From: Deltaproteobacteria bacterium
GTDB taxonomy: Bacteria; Desulfobacterota; Dissulfuribacteria; Dissulfuribacterales; QOAL01
Length of the DNA: 52,132 nucleotides
Assembly (NCBI GenBank): GCA_026986785.1
Contig: JALSNW010000010.1
Span: forward strand, 1 to 52,132
Direction: 5' to 3'
Shown: piece by piece, positions 1 through 9,874 of the stretch
How positions within the stretch are numbered: position 1 is the stretch's first letter
Layout: every line of letters begins with the position of its first letter
Made by a program: the position numbers and the translations under genes
The notes under the pieces: generated by a model
Told to the model about the DNA's origin: nothing
What the model saw: only the letters and a program-made list of their open reading frames with translations
Database searches by the model: none

Positions 1-2735
1 CCATTTGCATAATATAGAGGGGGAATGTTCTCGTTGTCATATACTGGATCAAAGGTTATGGGCACCCCTTCTTCCTGGTATTGCTTCATATTGAACTGGT
101 AGAGAAACTTCCAGAAGTCAAAGTTTGGATTGGTAGGCATACCATTGACCAAGCGTCCAGGATCCGATGAGGCATTGAGGTTGAAATACTCCACCATCTG
201 GCTCACAAAGTCCATAGGTACTATATTCCCTGTACCATCTGCATCTATGTGTTGAGATACCATATGGAAGTGAGGTATGCCATATCCAGGAGAGACACCA
301 TATACTGGAGAGAGCTCATATTCTGCAGGAAATGCCATGAGAGACCAGTCACCTCCTGGCAACAGGTTGTAACCAAACCTGTTGTCGAAGTTGCTGTAAT
401 AGCCCAAGGTGTCGTCAAAGGTTCGAAAACGCCATGTCCTCCTATAAGGTACGTGACATGCCTCACACTCTATGGTTGCAAGATGCCTCCCTGTAGTCTC
501 TCCGAACTTCTCCTCGTGGGCATTGGTGGGATCAGGTGCATCTGGATGGCCCCCTGCAAGATGACAGTATTCACATGTCTTTGGCTTCGGGTTGTTGTCC
601 AGGTCATTTCTGACCATATGGGCAGTATCCGTTCCCTTCAGAAAGTTGTGCTTGGCCTCAAGATCGCCTTTTTCCCTCAGATGGCAGGTACCACACCCCA
701 TTTTCCCCGAGGAAAGGTGGACCTCAAAACCAGGTTCTTCTGGATTGTCGGTGAGGTTTACATAGCGGCCATTCTTGACCCAGTCTGCATCCATGCCCAG
801 GTTATACGTCCTGGCACGGGTCCAGTTGCTATTGCCATGGTCCTTGGTCATGGCGTGACACTGCCCACATATCTTCACCCACTTAGGTGAAGATACATCT
901 GAGACCCCACCGAAAAGATCTATGTGTAAGGCACCGTCGCCGAGATCGGCCACATTGTAATAGGCCTTTGCCTGCCAATCGTCACCAGATCTTACTATCT
1001 GGATATACGTAAGAGGTGCCCCGTCTCCATTTATATCAAGCCCCATCAGATTCGCCGTAGGCATGTAGTTAAAAAAGCCTGGAATATATTGACGAAGGGC
1101 TACGGATATCTGGTCCATGGGGATGGTACCATTTTCCATGTCTATGAAGACCTTTGCGATATCAGGGCTGCCATCGGGCTTCATATAGGCAGGATTACCA
1201 TGCATGTATTGCCCTATGGCATACATCATGGCCCCAACACCACGGCCAGTATATCCTGAATAGGCAATCCCCTGCCCTTCCATAAGGGGGGCACGCATGT
1301 AATCCCTGACCGAGCCATTGGCATTGTCCCAATCCGTGTAGAAGGCACCTGGCTGATATCCCCTAAGTCCAAAGGGTATCTGGCAGAGTTGTCCAGATGG
1401 CCACTTGATCCTGTAGGCATAGATGAAATCGTTGAAAAACATGGACATCATATCCTCCATACCTGCATCTGGTGGCAAGAACCCATGTTCCTTCATATAT
1501 TGTAAGAAACCAGCGAACATCGTATCCAAGGCGGGTTTTGAGGCAGCAAGCCGTGCCATCTCGTCTTCAGGACCAGCAGGATTTGCACAATACGCATCGA
1601 GTATACCATTCGGCCCCCAGATAGACGGCACCACTTCTGGGGGGGCATAAAGGGCATAGGGTAGCTGTATACCTTGGGCTTCCATCTCTTTCAGCCCATC
1701 GGTCCACATCTGCATCATTTCGCCTATGTTTTCTGCTGGGAGTTGCATGAGTGCCATCTTGTTAGTTGGTCTCGAGATACGTTGGGCAGCATTGGTATAA
1801 TTGAGTACGCTCTGGCTCTTGAGGCCTGGCTCCAATGCCATCCCAAGAGAGATCTTCTGTACCTCTCCGTCTTGACGCTCAGCAAATATCATCATCCTTG
1901 GCCGAAAGGTCTGTACCCTTAGCCCATCGGCAGCCCTATACTGATACTGCCCCTGGGGGTCCAGATGACACAACAAGCAGTCTGCCTCCATGATACCCGA
2001 CCTGTGCCAATCCACAGGCTTTGGATCTCCTATTTGGGAGATGGTCTCATCAATGCTCTTGCCACTGTTGAGCACATGGGTCATTGCATCAGGACCGTAT
2101 GTATAAAAATCACGGTCATAACTATGAACCGGGGCCAGGGAAGGATCGTCATATGGGATAACTGTCCCGTCCGACTGGACAATCCCTTCGGCAGGCCCTC
2201 CACCTGGGTGACAGGAATAACAAGTACCTATCTGGTCATAGGTGGACTGATCGAAAAAATAAGGCTTCCCCTCTGTAGAGAACGGGTTATCCTGGCTTCC
2301 CCTTACGCTTTTGGCCGCCAACTGGCGGTAAGAAGGAGGTCACCATGCACCGTACTGACCCGGTGACAGAAGATGTCCATAGGCGTTTGCAAGGTACTTG
2401 TACAAGGTACCATCGTTGTTCTCATCGCTCCAGGTATCACTCATGATCTCTGCCTTTGGCCCAACCCCTTCACGGAAGTGATAGGCCCTGGTGACAGCCT
2501 GGTAATCGTGACACTTGCCACAGGTTGCCTTGGGGCTGTAGGCTGGGCCTGCCACATATACAGAGCCATTTGCAGCCTTGATCTGATCTGTATCATCCAG
2601 CTGAGAGACTATGGGCTGGCCATCCCTATCGAGTAACTGGATAGCTGGATGGGCCCAGAGCGTGGGGGCGAATGCCAATCCACTGAACAGGATGGACCAC
2701 ATGAAAGTGGAAATTATATTCATCTTTTTTGACAT
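1..2735 (-). CDS. Secreted large multiheme cytochrome c with in-frame UGA (probable selenoprotein), 3' end outside window
   Basis: ATG at 2735 is preceded by AGGAGG at 8 nt. Residues 1-28 form a signal peptide ending near LWA|HPA. The frame is open from 2735 to the left edge (about 911 residues) except for one TGA at 2342-2340, codon 132. Seven CxxCH heme motifs lie in this single frame, starting at residues 72 (CGKCH), 172 (CYSCH), 253 (CLLCH), 623 (CGQCH), 681 (CGTCH), 721 (CEYCH) and 757 (CEACH). A heme-free, Met-rich stretch spans about 258-622. The part after the TGA has no signal peptide of its own and could not make a functional exported cytochrome alone. With the adjacent hairpin this argues for selenocysteine insertion (…YGAW-U-PPSYRQ…) rather than termination. 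Its place after a porin and a heme lipoprotein gene suggests the extracellular terminal part of an electron conduit. Substrate unknown. A nonsense mutation or sequencing error remains possible. Confidence 0.8.
2299..2342 (-). promoter_or_regulatory. Candidate bacterial SECIS element directly after an in-frame UGA
   Basis: Read on the minus strand, the UGA (2342-2340) is followed after 16 nt by a 4-nt loop closed by a perfect 5-bp GC stem, CCGCC-AGUU-GGCGG (2328-2315). A second outer helix can form between CUCCUU (2338-2333) and AAGGGG (2304-2299), with one U-G pair. Bacterial SECIS elements lie immediately 3' of the UGA inside the coding region, have an apical loop roughly 16-37 nt from it, and carry a G in the first two loop positions. 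Loop AGUU meets this. The fit is visual; no folding energy was computed. Confidence 0.6.
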
Positions 2736-2793: not shown

Positions 2794-3705
2794 CTATCTC
2801 TTGTGTCTGAGTATTATATTCTGATGACACTCGTTGCAGTCAGATGTGGAGTGACAGACATTACAACTCCTGAAGTTGTGCCTTGCAGCTTCTGCATGAC
2901 CATTTTCCTTGGTATAGGCCATCCAATCAGCCCTGGCATGGGATACAGGTTTCTGGCTCCTGTGGCAATCCGAGCAATAGGAGGCTGGATGACACACTGC
3001 ACAGAGCCTACGATCATGGGTGGCATCCTGCCCATGCTGGGTAGTCTTCCAATTGAAAATATGATCCCTGGGTTTTTTGGTCTGGTGACAGTCTTGGCAA
3101 AAGGCCTTGCTATCATGACAATACAGACACGTCTTGTCGAACCGGCTATCAAAACCGTGATGTTCAGCCCAATCACCATGATGGCTGGCAGGGGGCACAT
3201 CCTTCCTGAGACGCCTGTGACAGGTCTCACATTCACTTGGGGCCTCATCTCCATTGTGGCATTGTCTGCATGTGGTCATCTCGGGCCACTTTATGTCATT
3301 GAGACTTTCATCTTCGTTCAGCCCTTCGTGACAGGTATCACATTCCACCCCCTCATGGACATCATGGGTAAAGATCACATCTTCATAGCTCTTTGGCTTT
3401 TCAACCATAGCCTCTTCCACTGAATAATCATTTTGTGCGCTCTTGAGAGAATGGCACTGCAAACAGTCCTCGGATGGATGATCCAGGTCGATATCGTGAC
3501 ACTCTGAGCACTTGTCCATGGTGGGATCTTGCATCTTCCCGTCATCCGCAATCTCGTGGCAATCACTGCATGCCATCTCGTTTTCCATCACGTGCAATCT
3601 ATGATTGAACTTCAGGGCACCTTCTTCCCTCTTACAACCTGAGAATAGGATACTGATCAGGGCTGTAAGAAGGAGTGCCAGGAATATTGAAATATTCTTT
3701 TTCAT
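2794..3705 (-). CDS. Dodecaheme c-type cytochrome lipoprotein
   Basis: A compact cytochrome of about 303 residues with twelve CxxCH motifs: CSDCH, CSECH, CLQCH, CDTCH, CRQCH, CETCH, CLYCH, CQDCH, CAVCH, CSDCH, CNVCH and CNECH, roughly one heme per 25 residues. The N-terminus MKKNISIF… is a lipoprotein signal ending in the lipobox LFSGC. A mature lipid-anchored Cys would place it on the outer membrane. I chose ATG 3705 (AGAGGA at 7 nt) because it gives a normal short n-region. A GTG at 3726 with AAGGAG at 7 nt is an equally well-supported start adding 7 residues, and its ribosome site overlaps the porin stop, implying translational coupling. Density, lipidation and gene order match the periplasm-facing heme wire of porin-cytochrome conduits of the Geobacter Omc/Ext type. 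That role is inferred. Confidence 0.9.
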   Translation of the reverse strand: MKKNISIFLALLLTALISILFSGCKREEGALKFNHRLHVMENEMACSDCHEIADDGKMQDPTMDKCSECHDIDLDHPSEDCLQCHSLKSAQNDYSVEEAMVEKPKSYEDVIFTHDVHEGVECDTCHEGLNEDESLNDIKWPEMTTCRQCHNGDEAPSECETCHRRLRKDVPPASHHGDWAEHHGFDSRFDKTCLYCHDSKAFCQDCHQTKKPRDHIFNWKTTQHGQDATHDRRLCAVCHPASYCSDCHRSQKPVSHARADWMAYTKENGHAEAARHNFRSCNVCHSTSDCNECHQNIILRHKR

Positions 3706-3738
3706 ATTCTTATCCTCTGATTTCACACCCTAACTCCT

Positions 3739-5148
3739 TCAAAATCTTATGGAGACAGTACAGGTAAGGCCATTTAGATCACTAATGCCGAATTCCTTGT
3801 AATAGTCATCCCGTTCGTATTCATATTTGAGTTCAGCCCATCTATTCTCGTTCATAAAATAGCGTACCGCTGCGTAGTAATTGTTTGCAGCCTCGTTCTC
3901 TATCATGCTGTTTACATCTTCACTCTTGTAGTAGTAACCACCAGATATCTCCCAATTGTTGAAGAGGTGCTGACTCAAGTCTGCAAAAAAAGATATTGAA
4001 TCTGCCTCGTAAAACTTATCTCTACTTTCCCACCAACGCGTTACCCCTATAGAACAGTGAAATCCCTCCAGATGGAGCCAGTGGTCTATGGTTATGCCAC
4101 CGGTCCAACTGGTGAAATCCGTGTTGTATAGGTCTTCGTCACTGATAGATGCAAGCTTTCTGAAAGAGAACCTCGTGAAGAAGGCAAGTCCTTCTTGCTT
4201 AGGGATCTGCTGACTCAAGGATAGGGTGACCTGATAGTATGCCTGCTCTCTGGCCAGGTACAGGTCCTTTATATCCTTGCCGAGATCTTTCTCAGGAGAT
4301 TGCCAGTCGAATATGAAATCCGAGGGATATTCGTTCTCAAAGTTGCGATATACCTTGATACCAATGGTAGTTCCTGTCTTTTCTATATCACCTACTGCAT
4401 CGAAATACGCGTATCTTGCATGGTTGTTGATAAATGCCCCATGGGCATCCATTTTGAGATTTGGATAGGGTCGCCAGTCTCCGTAGACCTCCCATGAATT
4501 TTCCTTGTAAAAGGAGGTATCTGCATGGAGTATGAGGTTTCGTATAGGATAGAATTCCAGGTTGAATCCGCCTATGCCATCTTTTCTGAGATTTGCATAG
4601 GGCTGAGAAGGCATTCCTCCATAGGCCTCGAAACTGAACCAGTCCAGGCCCAATACCCGATCTCCCCTGAGCCAAAGGCCATCGAGCTGCACACTCTCCA
4701 CGCCATAAACATACTGCCGCCCTATTCTTATGTCGTAGTTGGGTATCATCTCCTGAAAGTCCAGGTAACCATAATAGACGTTGACCTCCTGTCTCTCATC
4801 TCCACAGGCGTCTATATAGTCCTGAAACACTGACCCCTCGGGAGTGCCATCCAGGTCCTTACGGTACCTGCCAAGAAAATTTAGGCTCACCCCCTTCTCC
4901 TGCCAATTCCAGTCGAGTCCCACCTGCTCCTCAAAGTCCTGATCACTGGAATCATTCGGCACCATCTGCCTATCTGGTGGATTTGACCACTGAACTCTAT
5001 ACTTGGTTCTGGTCCTGATCTGTAATTCGCCTATTGGGGTATTGATCTGCGCCAATGCCGAGGCTGAAAAGATCAACAACAGGCACACAAGAAACAAACA
5101 CCCCTGCCCCTGCCTCAAACTGTTGATGAAACATCTGTCTTTTTTCAT
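3739..5148 (-). CDS. Outer-membrane beta-barrel porin of a porin-cytochrome conduit
   Basis: About 469 residues. ATG 5148 (MKKDRCFIN…) is chosen over the upstream ATG 5241 because it starts a classic signal peptide with hydrophobic core CLFLVCLLLIFSASALA and cleavage before QINTPI. The mature part has no cytoplasmic-type domain. It is rich in alternating aromatic/polar strands (for example YYGYLDF, DIRIGRQYVYG, GGYYYKSED) and ends …LTCTVSIRF with the C-terminal Phe typical of outer-membrane barrels. The next two genes on the strand encode a 12-heme lipoprotein and a secreted multiheme cytochrome, the composition of known extracellular electron conduits, in which the porin sheathes the heme wire. 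Which porin family it belongs to cannot be told by eye. Confidence 0.82.
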   Translation of the reverse strand: MKKDRCFINSLRQGQGCLFLVCLLLIFSASALAQINTPIGELQIRTRTKYRVQWSNPPDRQMVPNDSSDQDFEEQVGLDWNWQEKGVSLNFLGRYRKDLDGTPEGSVFQDYIDACGDERQEVNVYYGYLDFQEMIPNYDIRIGRQYVYGVESVQLDGLWLRGDRVLGLDWFSFEAYGGMPSQPYANLRKDGIGGFNLEFYPIRNLILHADTSFYKENSWEVYGDWRPYPNLKMDAHGAFINNHARYAYFDAVGDIEKTGTTIGIKVYRNFENEYPSDFIFDWQSPEKDLGKDIKDLYLAREQAYYQVTLSLSQQIPKQEGLAFFTRFSFRKLASISDEDLYNTDFTSWTGGITIDHWLHLEGFHCSIGVTRWWESRDKFYEADSISFFADLSQHLFNNWEISGGYYYKSEDVNSMIENEAANNYYAAVRYFMNENRWAELKYEYERDDYYKEFGISDLNGLTCTVSIRF

Positions 5149-5829
5149 GGTTCCCCATTCCACCCATCTTCCCCAATTTCCCCTGGCCCAGGCCAGAAAA
5201 AAGGGGAAACAATGTCTCGATCCAGATGGCACATCCCTCAAGACACAGAGGACAAAACAGTATTGACTCCTGAGTTGAGATGAAAATATAGAGTTTTCGA
5301 AAGTGTATTCAGTTCAGATGCAGATCTGCTAATTGTCCCAAGACGTCTTAACCGAAAGTAGTTGAACAGATGCCAGCAATCCACTAAGCAAACCCTACCA
5401 ACCCGAGTGCAATGACTGAGGACGTCCCTGCTCGATCTATCTGGCGTCTATTACCAGCCAGGGCGCTGCCAAGTCTGGACCCTAACAACAAATAATCAGG
5501 CATTATAAACCCTATCCATGATAGTGAACCTTTATTCACTATTCTTTTCTTAGCGGTATTTCTTTGTTGTGTCAAAGGTTTTTTTGATATATTTTAGTTA
5601 GTTAGAGCTATATTATAATCATTCGTTTAATTTTTACAGACTAATAATCAAACAAGAAAACATCTTCTTCTTTTAATCGACACAACTTACCAGAATGATA
5701 AATACTTTTTTCATATATTTTGGCCCTATTACTTATTGGGATATTCTGGTATCTTGTAAAGAGTAAGAATCAATTAGTGAATATTTTCTCAAATTTACTA
5801 AAGGCTTGAAGGCCTTTGTTGCATATTAT
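5149..5829. other. Long non-coding region upstream of the porin-cytochrome operon
   Basis: No convincing gene is seen. The short open frames here lack ribosome sites and recognisable features. The part from about 5580 to 5829 is strongly AT-rich. I looked for a GEMM (cyclic dinucleotide) riboswitch because such elements precede some cytochrome genes in related bacteria, but found no match to its core. The inverted repeat at 5521-5542 and a weak promoter candidate are the only structure noted. Confidence 0.5.
5521..5542. promoter_or_regulatory. Perfect 8-bp inverted repeat upstream of the conduit operon
   Basis: ATAGTGAA-CCTTTA-TTCACTAT is a perfect inverted repeat about 370 bp upstream of the porin start. 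It sits next to a possible minus-strand -35/-10 pair (TTGACA at 5575-5570, 17-nt spacer, TAAGAA at 5552-5547), so it would overlap the start of that transcript. It could be an operator or an RNA hairpin. There is no T-run, which weakens a terminator reading. The promoter is a weak visual match only. Confidence 0.35.
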
Positions 5830-6104: not shown

Positions 6105-8258
6105 TCAATCAGAAAGCCTTGCCCTGATAATAGGCAAGATCTCGGAAAACCTGAAAGGCTTGTGTACAAAATCCTCCACGTCGAGTTGTTGAATCTTTGA
6201 GATTGTCTCTTCGTCAAGATAACCAGTACAGATTATGACCTTGATATCTGGCCTTTGCTCCTTCAACTTTTCAAGGCACCTAAACCCCCCCATACCAGGC
6301 ATATTGAGGTCGAGAAGGACAAGATTGATGGCATCTGGCTCCCTTGAAAATATCTGCAAGGCCTCCTCACCACTCGAGGCCAAGATGACATTGAAGCCAA
6401 CCTTCTCCAGCATGTTTTTCCCTATGTCTCTTATCTGCTCCTCGTCATCTACCAAGAGAATCGTCTCTGAAGAGCTGACACCGTAGTCCCTCGAGACCAT
6501 CACATGATCCACCCTTTCCTCGTCTTCTGTGCATGCAGGGAAAAACACTGAGAAAACAGTACCTTTGCCTGGTTCGCTCTCACAGGTTATCCAACCACCA
6601 TGGCGCTTCACAATCCCATACACTATTGCCAGACCAAGGCCAGTGCCCCGTCCATCATCTTTAGTGGTGAAAAAGGGATCGAAGATCCGCTCACGGACCT
6701 CAGGAGGCATACCGGTTCCCGTATCCGAGACCTGGATCCTCAAAAAATCTTTCCCGTTGTCCTTGCTGTCTTCCTGGCCTGCCATAGAGATGAGGCCCCA
6801 ATCACTCTTGATCCTGTTGGTTGCTATCACCAGTTCGCCACCTTCTGGCATGGCATCCCTGGCGTTTAGGGCCAGATTCATAAGTACCTGCTCAAGCTGA
6901 ATAGGATCGGCAAGGATGGAGCCAGCATCTGCCGAGAGCCTGAGATCTATCCTTATCATCTTTGGGATGAGCCTTTGGAGCAACCTGCTGAGGGACACTA
7001 TCTGTTCATTCACATCGATTATTTCCTTCTTTCCCTCCTCCTTCCTGCTGAATACCAACAGTTGCCTTGTGACAAGAGAGGCCCTTTCGACGACCTTTTC
7101 TATCTGGCCAAGGAAGTACTTTATCTTTGCAGGGTTGTTGTAGGCTTCCAGGCTCATCTGGACATACCCGGCAATGATCTGAAAGATATTGTTCAGATCA
7201 TGGGCAACTCCGCTGGCAAGGGTCCCTATGGCCTCCATTTTCTGGGCCTGTATGAGTTCATGTTCCAGGATCCTCTTTGCTGTCACGTCCCGTATGAAGA
7301 ACAGGCCTGCTGGCTCGGACTTCCAGATCACCGGCACTGCCATCACCTCGAGCCATTTTTTGTCATCGGCACCACATTCGATCTCAAGGGTATCCAACAC
7401 ACAGTTTTCCTCTCCCTCCACGGGTCCACTACATACCTTTTGGATAATTTCAGCCCTATCGTCAGGCATCAATTCCAAGAAGTTGACCCTTTCAAGGGAG
7501 GAAACCCCTGAGCAGTTGAAGAGCCTTTCAGCTTCAGGGTTCCAAAAAACAACAGCAGAATCTTTTACAACAATTATCCCTTCCCTGGCATTGTTGACCA
7601 CTGTGGCATATTTGGACTCTGATTCCTCAACAGAATCTTCGAGCCTACGGGCATATTCCTTCAACTTTTCTTCTGCAGCCTTAAGGCCCTTTCTCGCCAC
7701 AAATTCCTCAAAGCGCTTACGGTAATTGAAATAGGAGGCAACGAGCAAAACCCCCAAGCTGGACACCAGATATATGTTGTTCACAAGAAACAGATTGGTA
7801 AACCCACCGCTGCCTGAATAAAAAACCACCATCAAATACAAAAGATAGAGAATAACAGTATGGATGAGATGGTTCTTGAAGTCAAAGGGGATGAAAGTGA
7901 GAAATGCAATGAACAAAAGTAGAAGACCCGCATAATAGGGGGTGCCAAATCCATTGACCTCCTTGATCATCGAGAGGATGCATAGACCGATGACGTAAAA
8001 GCCAATGATAGCAATGGCTCGGGAGGTGAACAGATCTGCACTCTTCTGATTCAGGATGAATAAAAGCAGGGCAATAGCTGCTGTTATCAGCCTGTATACA
8101 AGAAATGTCCTGAAGTGTTCTGGGTAAAACAGGTAATCAATCCAGGCCAAGGCCGGCAGCATGAAGGCGGCAAGCAACAGGGCAAAATTCACCCGGAACC
8201 TCAGTACTGGAAAAAGCTCTGCTTGGAACTCCTCTAAGAGTTTAGATTCCTTTTCCAA
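6105..8258 (-). CDS. Membrane hybrid histidine kinase (PAS-HisKA-HATPase-REC)
   Basis: A 717-residue sensor. Residues about 20-180 hold six or so hydrophobic membrane segments, followed by a short coiled coil (185-215) and a PAS domain (about 216-330). The HisKA dimerisation helix has phospho-acceptor H353 (ASGVAHDLNN). The HATPase_c domain has the N-box at N465 (LALNARDAM) and glycine boxes DTGTGMP and GTGLGLAI. A C-terminal receiver carries acidic DDEE at about 604 and phospho-acceptor D650 (VLLDLNMPG). All catalytic residues are present. Its start lies 20 nt after the stop of the cNMP/methyltransferase gene, so the two are probably one operon. That pairing recalls phc-type quorum-sensing loci, where a signal-forming methyltransferase sits with sensor kinases. 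The ligand is unknown. Confidence 0.93.
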   Translation of the reverse strand: MEKESKLLEEFQAELFPVLRFRVNFALLLAAFMLPALAWIDYLFYPEHFRTFLVYRLITAAIALLLFILNQKSADLFTSRAIAIIGFYVIGLCILSMIKEVNGFGTPYYAGLLLLFIAFLTFIPFDFKNHLIHTVILYLLYLMVVFYSGSGGFTNLFLVNNIYLVSSLGVLLVASYFNYRKRFEEFVARKGLKAAEEKLKEYARRLEDSVEESESKYATVVNNAREGIIVVKDSAVVFWNPEAERLFNCSGVSSLERVNFLELMPDDRAEIIQKVCSGPVEGEENCVLDTLEIECGADDKKWLEVMAVPVIWKSEPAGLFFIRDVTAKRILEHELIQAQKMEAIGTLASGVAHDLNNIFQIIAGYVQMSLEAYNNPAKIKYFLGQIEKVVERASLVTRQLLVFSRKEEGKKEIIDVNEQIVSLSRLLQRLIPKMIRIDLRLSADAGSILADPIQLEQVLMNLALNARDAMPEGGELVIATNRIKSDWGLISMAGQEDSKDNGKDFLRIQVSDTGTGMPPEVRERIFDPFFTTKDDGRGTGLGLAIVYGIVKRHGGWITCESEPGKGTVFSVFFPACTEDEERVDHVMVSRDYGVSSSETILLVDDEEQIRDIGKNMLEKVGFNVILASSGEEALQIFSREPDAINLVLLDLNMPGMGGFRCLEKLKEQRPDIKVIICTGYLDEETISKIQQLDVEDFVHKPFRFSEILPIIRARLSD

Positions 8259-8278
8259 AATCTGCTTTTTTTATGAGC

Positions 8279-9874
8279 CTATGTCCTTTTTCTGGCAATG
8301 GCGAACAGATTCACGCCCTCTGGTTCTGAAAGAACCTCTATATCCCTCCCAAAAGGGGTCTTGTCAAATATTGACTTTAGATCGTTCTCGTCCCTGTGGA
8401 TCAACTTCCACTGAAATATATGATCCATCCAGGCCTTGTTGGGATTGGCCTTTGAAAAATTGCTCAATATCAATATGCCACCTGGTTTCAGATAGTCCCA
8501 AGCTCGTGTAGCAAGGGCTGCAAAAAGCCTGTCGTCCAGGTAATCGGTGAGGCCGGCAGAATAAATAATATCCCTCATCTGAAAATTATGACGTACTCGT
8601 CCCAAGGCCCATTTTAACACATTTTCCTGCATTAGTGTTATCTTTGCCCTATGCTCGAATACATCCACGTATTTGGAGGTGTATTCAAGGGCCTCGGGAT
8701 CGGCATCGATACAGAGACAGTCGAGCTTTTCACTATGCGGAAATCTGGCTATGAAATCGAAAAGTTCTCTGTTCGAACCACAGGCCAGGTTCATTATACC
8801 TATTGTATCACTCCCATCCATGAATTGTTTGACATGTTTTTCAAGGAGTTCTGAAAGGAGGCGTCTCCTCCCCCTGACGGCCCTGGGCGGAGGTGCATCG
8901 AGACAGTACCTATCCAACATGATGCCTAGGAGGCCATCCCCATCTGGGATGTTTCTGTAAATCGCCTCCATCATCAAAAAGTCACCAGCATAACCTTTGG
9001 GCTTGAAATATGCCCTTTCTGCAAAACGGCTCCTCATGAAATATGGAAAGATCTCTTTGAAGATATAGCCCCATATATATTCAGAGATACCCTTTTGGGC
9101 ATCCAGTTTTTGGGCCAATACCTCAAGATAGCCATCAAAGGCATCCATGGTCTCCTTCAGATAGAGGTATAATTGTTCATCTATCTCTGTACTGTTGGAG
9201 GCCTGGACACTCGACGCTATCTCATACATATGTGCCTTGAATCGCTCTACATGCCCAGTCACTTCTTTCCAGATATGGGTCTCGAATATATTTGCTGGTA
9301 CTGGCCGTGGCTTTGAGAAAAGAGGCCGCCTTCCTGAAGAGAGGCTGGCTGTATAACCAGCCAGATTCTGGGTATCTGCAACGACCTTCCTGAATTTTTT
9401 GCATATCGACATGGCCACAAGGGCGAGAAAATCAGCATAAAGCCTGGGGTTTTCAAGGCGAAGCCGGGAGGCCGAAACCGCATCCATTATGGAGAGCATG
9501 GAATTTTCCGAGGCCTTTATCTTCCTGACCCTGGTCAGGCCATCGAAAAAGCCGATTTCCCCAAAAAATTCGTCTTCTCCAATCAAGGCCAGGACGATCC
9601 TGGTGCCACCTGAATCGTATGAGACCTCCACCCCGCCCTTCTTCACATAGTATAGACAATTGCCTTCATGTCTGGAAAGGTCGATATCCTGACCCCTTAA
9701 GCAGTGCTCATTCTGGAAATACGGCTCCACGGATGCCAATATTTCTCGTCTGGGCAAAAATAAGAAATGAGAAATACTATCTTCTATTATCTCCTTGAAA
9801 AGTAGATTCATGCCACCTCCTTCTTTGTGTACCAAGTCTACCAACAGTAATTTAGGTATCTTGTTTTCAGACAT
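8279..9874 (-). CDS. Cyclic-nucleotide-binding domain fused to PhcB-like SAM methyltransferase
   Basis: 531 residues. Residues about 40-165 form a Crp-type cyclic-nucleotide-binding domain (FGEIGFFDGLTRVRKIKA at 104-121). A helical linker follows, then a class I SAM-dependent methyltransferase with motif I NLACGSNRE at 362-370 and the acidic loop CIDADPEAL at 388-396. The segment KGYAGDFLMMEAIYR (about 293-307) is typical of proteins annotated as extracellular factor (3-hydroxypalmitate methyl ester) synthases such as PhcB. No helix-turn-helix is evident, so the cNMP domain probably regulates the enzyme rather than DNA binding. ATG 9874 has GGGGAT upstream. It is divergent from valS, and the next gene is a hybrid kinase. 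Making a methyl-ester signal is an inference from family resemblance. Confidence 0.75.
   Translation of the reverse strand: MSENKIPKLLLVDLVHKEGGGMNLLFKEIIEDSISHFLFLPRREILASVEPYFQNEHCLRGQDIDLSRHEGNCLYYVKKGGVEVSYDSGGTRIVLALIGEDEFFGEIGFFDGLTRVRKIKASENSMLSIMDAVSASRLRLENPRLYADFLALVAMSICKKFRKVVADTQNLAGYTASLSSGRRPLFSKPRPVPANIFETHIWKEVTGHVERFKAHMYEIASSVQASNSTEIDEQLYLYLKETMDAFDGYLEVLAQKLDAQKGISEYIWGYIFKEIFPYFMRSRFAERAYFKPKGYAGDFLMMEAIYRNIPDGDGLLGIMLDRYCLDAPPPRAVRGRRRLLSELLEKHVKQFMDGSDTIGIMNLACGSNRELFDFIARFPHSEKLDCLCIDADPEALEYTSKYVDVFEHRAKITLMQENVLKWALGRVRHNFQMRDIIYSAGLTDYLDDRLFAALATRAWDYLKPGGILILSNFSKANPNKAWMDHIFQWKLIHRDENDLKSIFDKTPFGRDIEVLSEPEGVNLFAIARKRT

Follow-up and report, generated by a model that had tools for sequence, protein, structure and literature searches.

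A selenocysteine-type octaheme cytochrome encoded in a conduit-like operon of a deltaproteobacterium, and its family resembling octaheme tetrathionate reductase

In the 52,132-nt stretch of deltaproteobacterial DNA analysed here (contig JALSNW010000010.1 of assembly GCA_026986785.1; referred to below as the window), a large multiheme c-type cytochrome is encoded by a gene with a single in-frame UGA. Our reading of the whole, to which we assign a probability of roughly two in three, is that the UGA is decoded as selenocysteine (Sec), that the product is a secreted octaheme cytochrome forming the outer part of an electron conduit, and that Sec132 is catalytic at a second heme similar to that of octaheme tetrathionate reductase (OTR).

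The frame running from position 2735 to position 1 on the minus strand contained a single stop codon, the TGA at 2340-2342 (codon 132), and was otherwise open. Translation with the UGA read as one residue gave 911 amino acids with seven CxxCH motifs in the window, confirming what the first-pass annotation of this DNA had described. The gene is split over two contigs in the assembly (2.59 Mb, 52 contigs, 99% complete): window positions 1-150 and G000:C29:1-148 overlap by about 150 bases, and the C29 continuation runs in frame to a TAG stop, giving a whole protein of about 1341 aa. An eighth CxxCH lies in this continuation. The earlier description as a multiheme cytochrome was retained with a corrected heme count, in which the seven hemes belong to the window part and the whole protein is octaheme. 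The part following the UGA, which starts with PPSYRQLAAK, was also said to lack its own signal peptide, and none was evident by eye. The features are as follows.

1..2735, minus strand: predicted Sec octaheme c-type cytochrome, residues 1-911 of about 1341, with UGA as Sec; leaves the window at the left edge
Contig G000:C29, bases 2-1441: remainder of the octaheme gene, with an exact 49-residue overlap with the window part
2508..2522, minus strand: heme motif 1, CGKCH, residues 72-76
2340..2342, minus strand: in-frame UGA (putative Sec132) in SPGQYGAW-U-PPSYRQLAAK; TGA in 23/23 orthologues, Cys in distant homologues
2298..2342, minus strand: putative bSECIS, comprising the UGA, a 16-nt spacer, a 5-bp CCGCC/GGCGG stem, an AGUU loop and a lower helix
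2315..2328, minus strand: apical stem-loop of the putative SECIS, CCGCC AGUU GGCGG
2208..2222, minus strand: heme motif 2, CYSCH, residues 172-176; a catalytic role is proposed from the OTR analogy
1965..1979, minus strand: heme motif 3, CLLCH, residues 253-257
855..869, minus strand: heme motif 4, CGQCH, residues 623-627
768..785, minus strand: DWVKNG, residues 651-656; counterpart of OTR D150-x-x-K153-x-G155, with the proposed Lys ligand of heme 2
681..695, minus strand: heme motif 5, CGTCH, residues 681-685
561..575, minus strand: heme motif 6, CEYCH, residues 721-725
453..467, minus strand: heme motif 7, CEACH, residues 757-761

Bacterial SECIS elements have been described as having a loop of 3-9 nt, a stem of 4-16 bp, G in the first two loop positions, a spacing of 16-37 nt, and an MFE of <= -7.5 (PMC13188914). 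The hairpin after codon 132 lies within these limits, with a 4-nt AGUU loop whose second base is G, a 5-bp stem, a 16-nt spacing, and -14.5 to -15 kcal/mol. The stem and spacing fitted a bSECIS; the stability of the single sequence (about -15 kcal/mol, z = 0.60 against shuffles) was unexceptional. An Rfam search returned no SECIS match. As the single sequence is no more stable than shuffled versions of it, the case for Sec rests on comparison. When 407 segments of 14 codons each were compared along the gene in 23 orthologues, the least synonymous variation was found in those starting at codons 125-137, to which all of the twelve lowest belonged, and codons 136 (TAC), 137 (CGC), 138 (CAG), and 140 (GCG) were each identical in 23/23 orthologues. 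Such frozen synonymous codons after a UGA are the trace expected of an RNA element within a coding sequence. Furthermore, the apical stem was invariant in 20/20 distinct sequences, and the lower helix contained one covarying pair with C-G, U-A, U-G, and G-C forms; together with the agreement with the bSECIS limits, these results support the earlier view that the GC-rich AGUU stem-loop and its outer helix constitute a SECIS. Two Cys homologues, L054 and L055, have a decayed hairpin.

TGA occupied the position of codon 132 in all 23 of the orthologues aligned (58-84% identity to the window protein), and orthologues belonging to other families within the phylum have the same UGA. Since it is common to independent genomes, the UGA is not a sequencing error. 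UGA is also the commonest stop in the window, closing 19/33 long ORFs, and is not reassigned because it terminates valS and other genes there. Sequencing error, or reassignment of UGA to Trp or Gly, was rejected as having a negligible probability: nothing was found in its favour, the same UGA occurs in independent assemblies, and the residue aligned elsewhere is Cys rather than Trp or Gly. The frequent use of UGA as a stop would also suit a true stop at codon 132, leaving a pseudogene or two separate proteins. This is very improbable, as the frame and the UGA are conserved in dozens of genomes of several families, the codons over the SECIS are frozen, the Cys homologues continue uninterrupted across the position, and the Sec machinery is complete; the pseudogene version was rejected on the conserved UGA and frame and on the frozen synonymous codons.

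All four components of that machinery, for which a genome search had been proposed, were found in the source genome: tRNA-Sec (selC) with the anticodon UCA, SelA (603 bits), SelB (350 bits), and SelD (367 bits), the last with one in-frame UGA of its own. The SelD gene (L162, G000:C28:10066-10989) probably itself encodes a selenoprotein. SelB did not separate Sec from Cys forms and is not discriminating, because genomes with Cys forms also have it. In G034, a 90% complete genome carrying a UGA form, no SelB was found above the cut-off. Taken together, the comparative sequence evidence indicates that UGA132 is almost certainly decoded as Sec. The decoding would be carried out by SelA, SelB, SelC, and SelD of this genome, directed by the bSECIS hairpin 16 nt downstream, and the product would be a single secreted c-type cytochrome with eight hemes and about 1341 aa.

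Homologues were detected in 31 of 60 relatives and in 90 of 395 phylum genomes searched, with the family consensus YSPxxTCGxCH...YHFxxG...SPGxxGxW-[U/C]-P...RQLA...CxxCHPGGG. The Sec/Cys column was invariant over 20 aligned homologues. Among the 81 family members placed in a tree, 58 had Sec, 9 had Cys, and 14 had neither (Leu, Ser, His, Gln, and others); Sec or Cys at the aligned position, which the first-pass annotation had proposed to look for, was lost only in some divergent branches. The label Sec, Cys, or neither changed about eight times on this quick maximum-likelihood tree, which has some long branches. A D-x-x-K-x-G motif was kept in 64/67 Sec/Cys forms versus 3/13 forms with neither Sec nor Cys, a contrast between related sequences that is to be read as a pattern, its Fisher p not being a probability. 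The paralogues L041 and L053 retain the Lys motif with Leu replacing Sec.

Several other members were observed in the course of this survey. A second Sec octaheme is encoded in the same genome (G000:C21, L070:7328-9778; 817 aa), with its UGA in GGRW-U-SPAP and with C-terminal hydrophobic helices. A gap of 16 nt separates the start of its gene from the RND efflux gene before it (L070:4135-7311), upstream of which lie a permease gene and genes for TolC-like and membrane-fusion-like proteins. L041, L053, L054, and L055 are giant paralogues (1540-2350 aa) in which Leu or Cys replaces Sec; some of them carry additional heme motifs. In genome G007, Sec, Cys, and Leu versions co-occur.

The relationship of this family to OTR (TIGR04315, PDB 1SP3) was examined by profile comparison. 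In an NCBIfam search with the window protein, no model passed; the score against TIGR04315 was 21.2 bits, below the curated cut-off of 375 bits, and shorter paralogues reached up to 49 bits against the same cut-off. In the profile comparison with OTR, hemes 3-7 were colinear (E = 6e-18) in the register ADCLLCH/VDCLVCH, DWKKKG/DGVKHG, and DVH/DVH. The register stayed when the heme motifs were masked, with E = 0.014. Because the masked match reached only this value, the claim was reduced from an OTR member to a likely relative; homology of the window family with OTR is probable on these profiles. PDB sequence searches with the family gave nothing meaningful, and an AlphaFold2 model from a four-sequence alignment was unusable (pLDDT 28.9).

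The two proteins are alike in having eight hemes, Sec or Cys between hemes 1 and 2, and D-x-x-K-x-G and DVH after heme 4. The window family has the D-x-x-K-x-G motif aligned with that of OTR, whose Lys after heme 4 is position 153 in the 1SP3 alignment, and ligation of heme 2 by the corresponding Lys of the window family is predicted. The Sec/Cys position and OTR Cys64 share the loop between hemes 1 and 2, without an exact column match in the profile alignment. On the other hand, the window protein is 2-3 times longer than OTR with large insertions, is without the NNF-C and HWTW context of OTR, and is encoded in a porin-cytochrome operon. Lys153 is reportedly the heme-2 ligand of OTR, and Cys64 reportedly lies in its active site (Mowat et al. 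2004). The second heme of OTR is catalytic and ligated by a conserved Lys (PMC11024163). Most true OTR members in these genomes of the phylum are themselves selenoproteins: of the seven scoring above the cut-off, six had one UGA, at NN(S)F-U; by alignment, this position corresponds to chain position 64 of 1SP3, a Cys. The OTR genes with a UGA at Cys64 of 1SP3 (L072-L077 and L079) then have a strong hairpin, e.g., CUGGUGC-AGGU-GCACCAG.

The first-pass annotation had regarded Sec in a multiheme cytochrome as unusual. The Sec reading stood, but it is not unprecedented, since ExtKL and the OTR type are known (PMC1914089, PMC5877670, PMC13188914). The proposal of Sec in such a protein dates from 2007 and was based on an in-frame UGA (PMC1914089); it was later taken up under the name ExtKL (PMC5877670), and an OTR-type Sec cytochrome has been listed as GenBank-annotated (PMC13188914). 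ExtKL (NF040886; Geobacter GSU2937-2936) is likewise a Sec-containing multiheme cytochrome; it differs in having five hemes N-terminal to its Sec and an unrelated C-terminal part, and the window protein had no match to the ExtKL model NF040886. Genome-wide, the only match to NF040886 was a weak one, L173 (G000:C13:22663-23457), which scored 57 bits, did not reach the cut-off, and contains no UGA. Short-form paralogues of the window family are remotely similar (E about 5e-13) to MmcA, the methanogen heptaheme cytochrome (TIGR04314), which is related to OTR (PMC11024163); MmcA is without the second heme motif and Lys of OTR (PMC11024163), whereas the window family has both motifs. A 2026 table of 119 prokaryotic selenoprotein families (PMC13188914) contains three multiheme/CXXCH entries, namely ExtKL, the GSU2204 barrel family, and the OTR family, and the present family is missing from it. 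No report of this family was found in the literature searched. As judged from its sequences, it is a broad and uncatalogued Sec/Cys octaheme family resembling OTR; what is new is the family, its breadth, its pattern of Sec, Cys, and loss, and its place in a conduit operon.

In that operon, the octaheme gene is the third after two genes on the same strand.

3739..5241, minus strand: barrel-like (porin-like) protein, 500 aa, C-terminal Phe; probable start ATG near 5148
2794..3726, minus strand: 12-heme cytochrome, 310 aa, with a lipobox-like LFSGC near the N-terminus; likely periplasmic partner

The barrel assignment was made by inspection because the protein had no Pfam or NCBIfam match. A 12-heme ORF was located upstream of the octaheme gene in 25/27 loci, and barrel homologues (38-79% identity) preceded the 12-heme gene in nine octaheme loci; at three tested loci (L022, L171, and L172), a porin match was absent. 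The arrangement resembles MtrCAB, OmbB-OmaB-OmcB, and OetABI (PMC10553843), in which a barrel, a periplasmic multiheme cytochrome, and a larger secreted multiheme cytochrome are encoded together. It differs from them in that the barrel was matched by no family model and in its outer partner, an OTR-like Sec octaheme that lacks a lipobox. The conserved order of porin, 12-heme, and octaheme genes supports the electron conduit that had been proposed earlier, and it is this operon anatomy that points to a surface location; the octaheme is likely to be the outer component. Electrons would cross between the periplasm and the cell surface via the barrel and the 12-heme cytochrome, with the octaheme outermost. 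Adjoining the operon on the same strand (6105-9874) are genes for two possible regulators, a hybrid sensor kinase of 717 aa and a 531-aa cyclic-nucleotide-binding-like/methyltransferase-like protein.

Two roles had been suggested for the Sec, a catalytic residue and a heme ligand, of which the former is better supported. If Sec132 were an axial heme ligand or a tuner of heme potential, the selenoprotein would be a wire and not an enzyme; the conduit-like operon would suit such a role, and eight hemes could form a relay. However, Leu, Ser, His, Gln, and other residues take the place of Sec/Cys in branches that retain all eight hemes, so Sec/Cys is not needed for heme binding. Loss of Sec/Cys is also accompanied by loss of D-x-x-K-x-G, and the amount of protein per heme, about 18 kDa, is far above that of pure electron-transfer cytochromes. 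Multiheme proteins with >7 kDa per heme are catalytic (PMC7096707); the octaheme falls in that range, which counts for an enzyme, and we consider a wire role unlikely.

Sec132 could alternatively bind or detoxify metals, mercury, or selenite, or serve as an oxidant-sensing switch. The linkage of a paralogue in the same genome to an RND efflux gene set, which ends 16 nt ahead of it, would fit this idea, as would ExtKL, another Sec cytochrome, which has been tied to selenite reduction (PMC5877670). On the other side, the one Sec is not accompanied by a paired Cys motif, the operon with its porin and 12-heme genes suggests respiration, and it would be left unexplained why Sec/Cys and the Lys motif go together; such a role appears still more doubtful than that of a wire.

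A catalytic Sec at an OTR-like site is what we consider probable, by analogy with OTR. By this resemblance, a Lys probably ligates heme 2, which is probably also accessible to substrate. Sec132 lies between hemes 1 and 2, in the loop that holds Cys64 in OTR, and would probably be a redox-catalytic residue or nucleophile at heme 2 rather than a heme ligand or a structural thiol. Candidate substrates may be a sulfur oxyanion, polysulfide, S0, or a metal; a sulfur species is our guess, which would fit OTR chemistry, with metals as the alternative.

The recurrent Sec-or-Cys site probably marks a catalytic centre, as suggested by the aligned sequences. Tentatively, and with less than even odds, the family may be a large superfamily of Sec/Cys octaheme enzymes in which a Lys ligates the catalytic heme and Sec is adjacent to it; the member described here would be a surface selenium-dependent respiratory enzyme wired via the conduit, possibly for elemental sulfur or polysulfide. 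If the present reading is true, the gene would stand annotated as a truncated ORF and a headless ORF in many genomes of the phylum. The recurrent exchange of Sec and Cys, with the tendency to joint loss of the Lys motif, would provide a genetic handle on the role of the OTR cysteine. A Sec enzyme ending a conduit would mean that conduits may carry catalysis besides wiring, and it would become possible to test whether selenium supply is linked to extracellular respiration.
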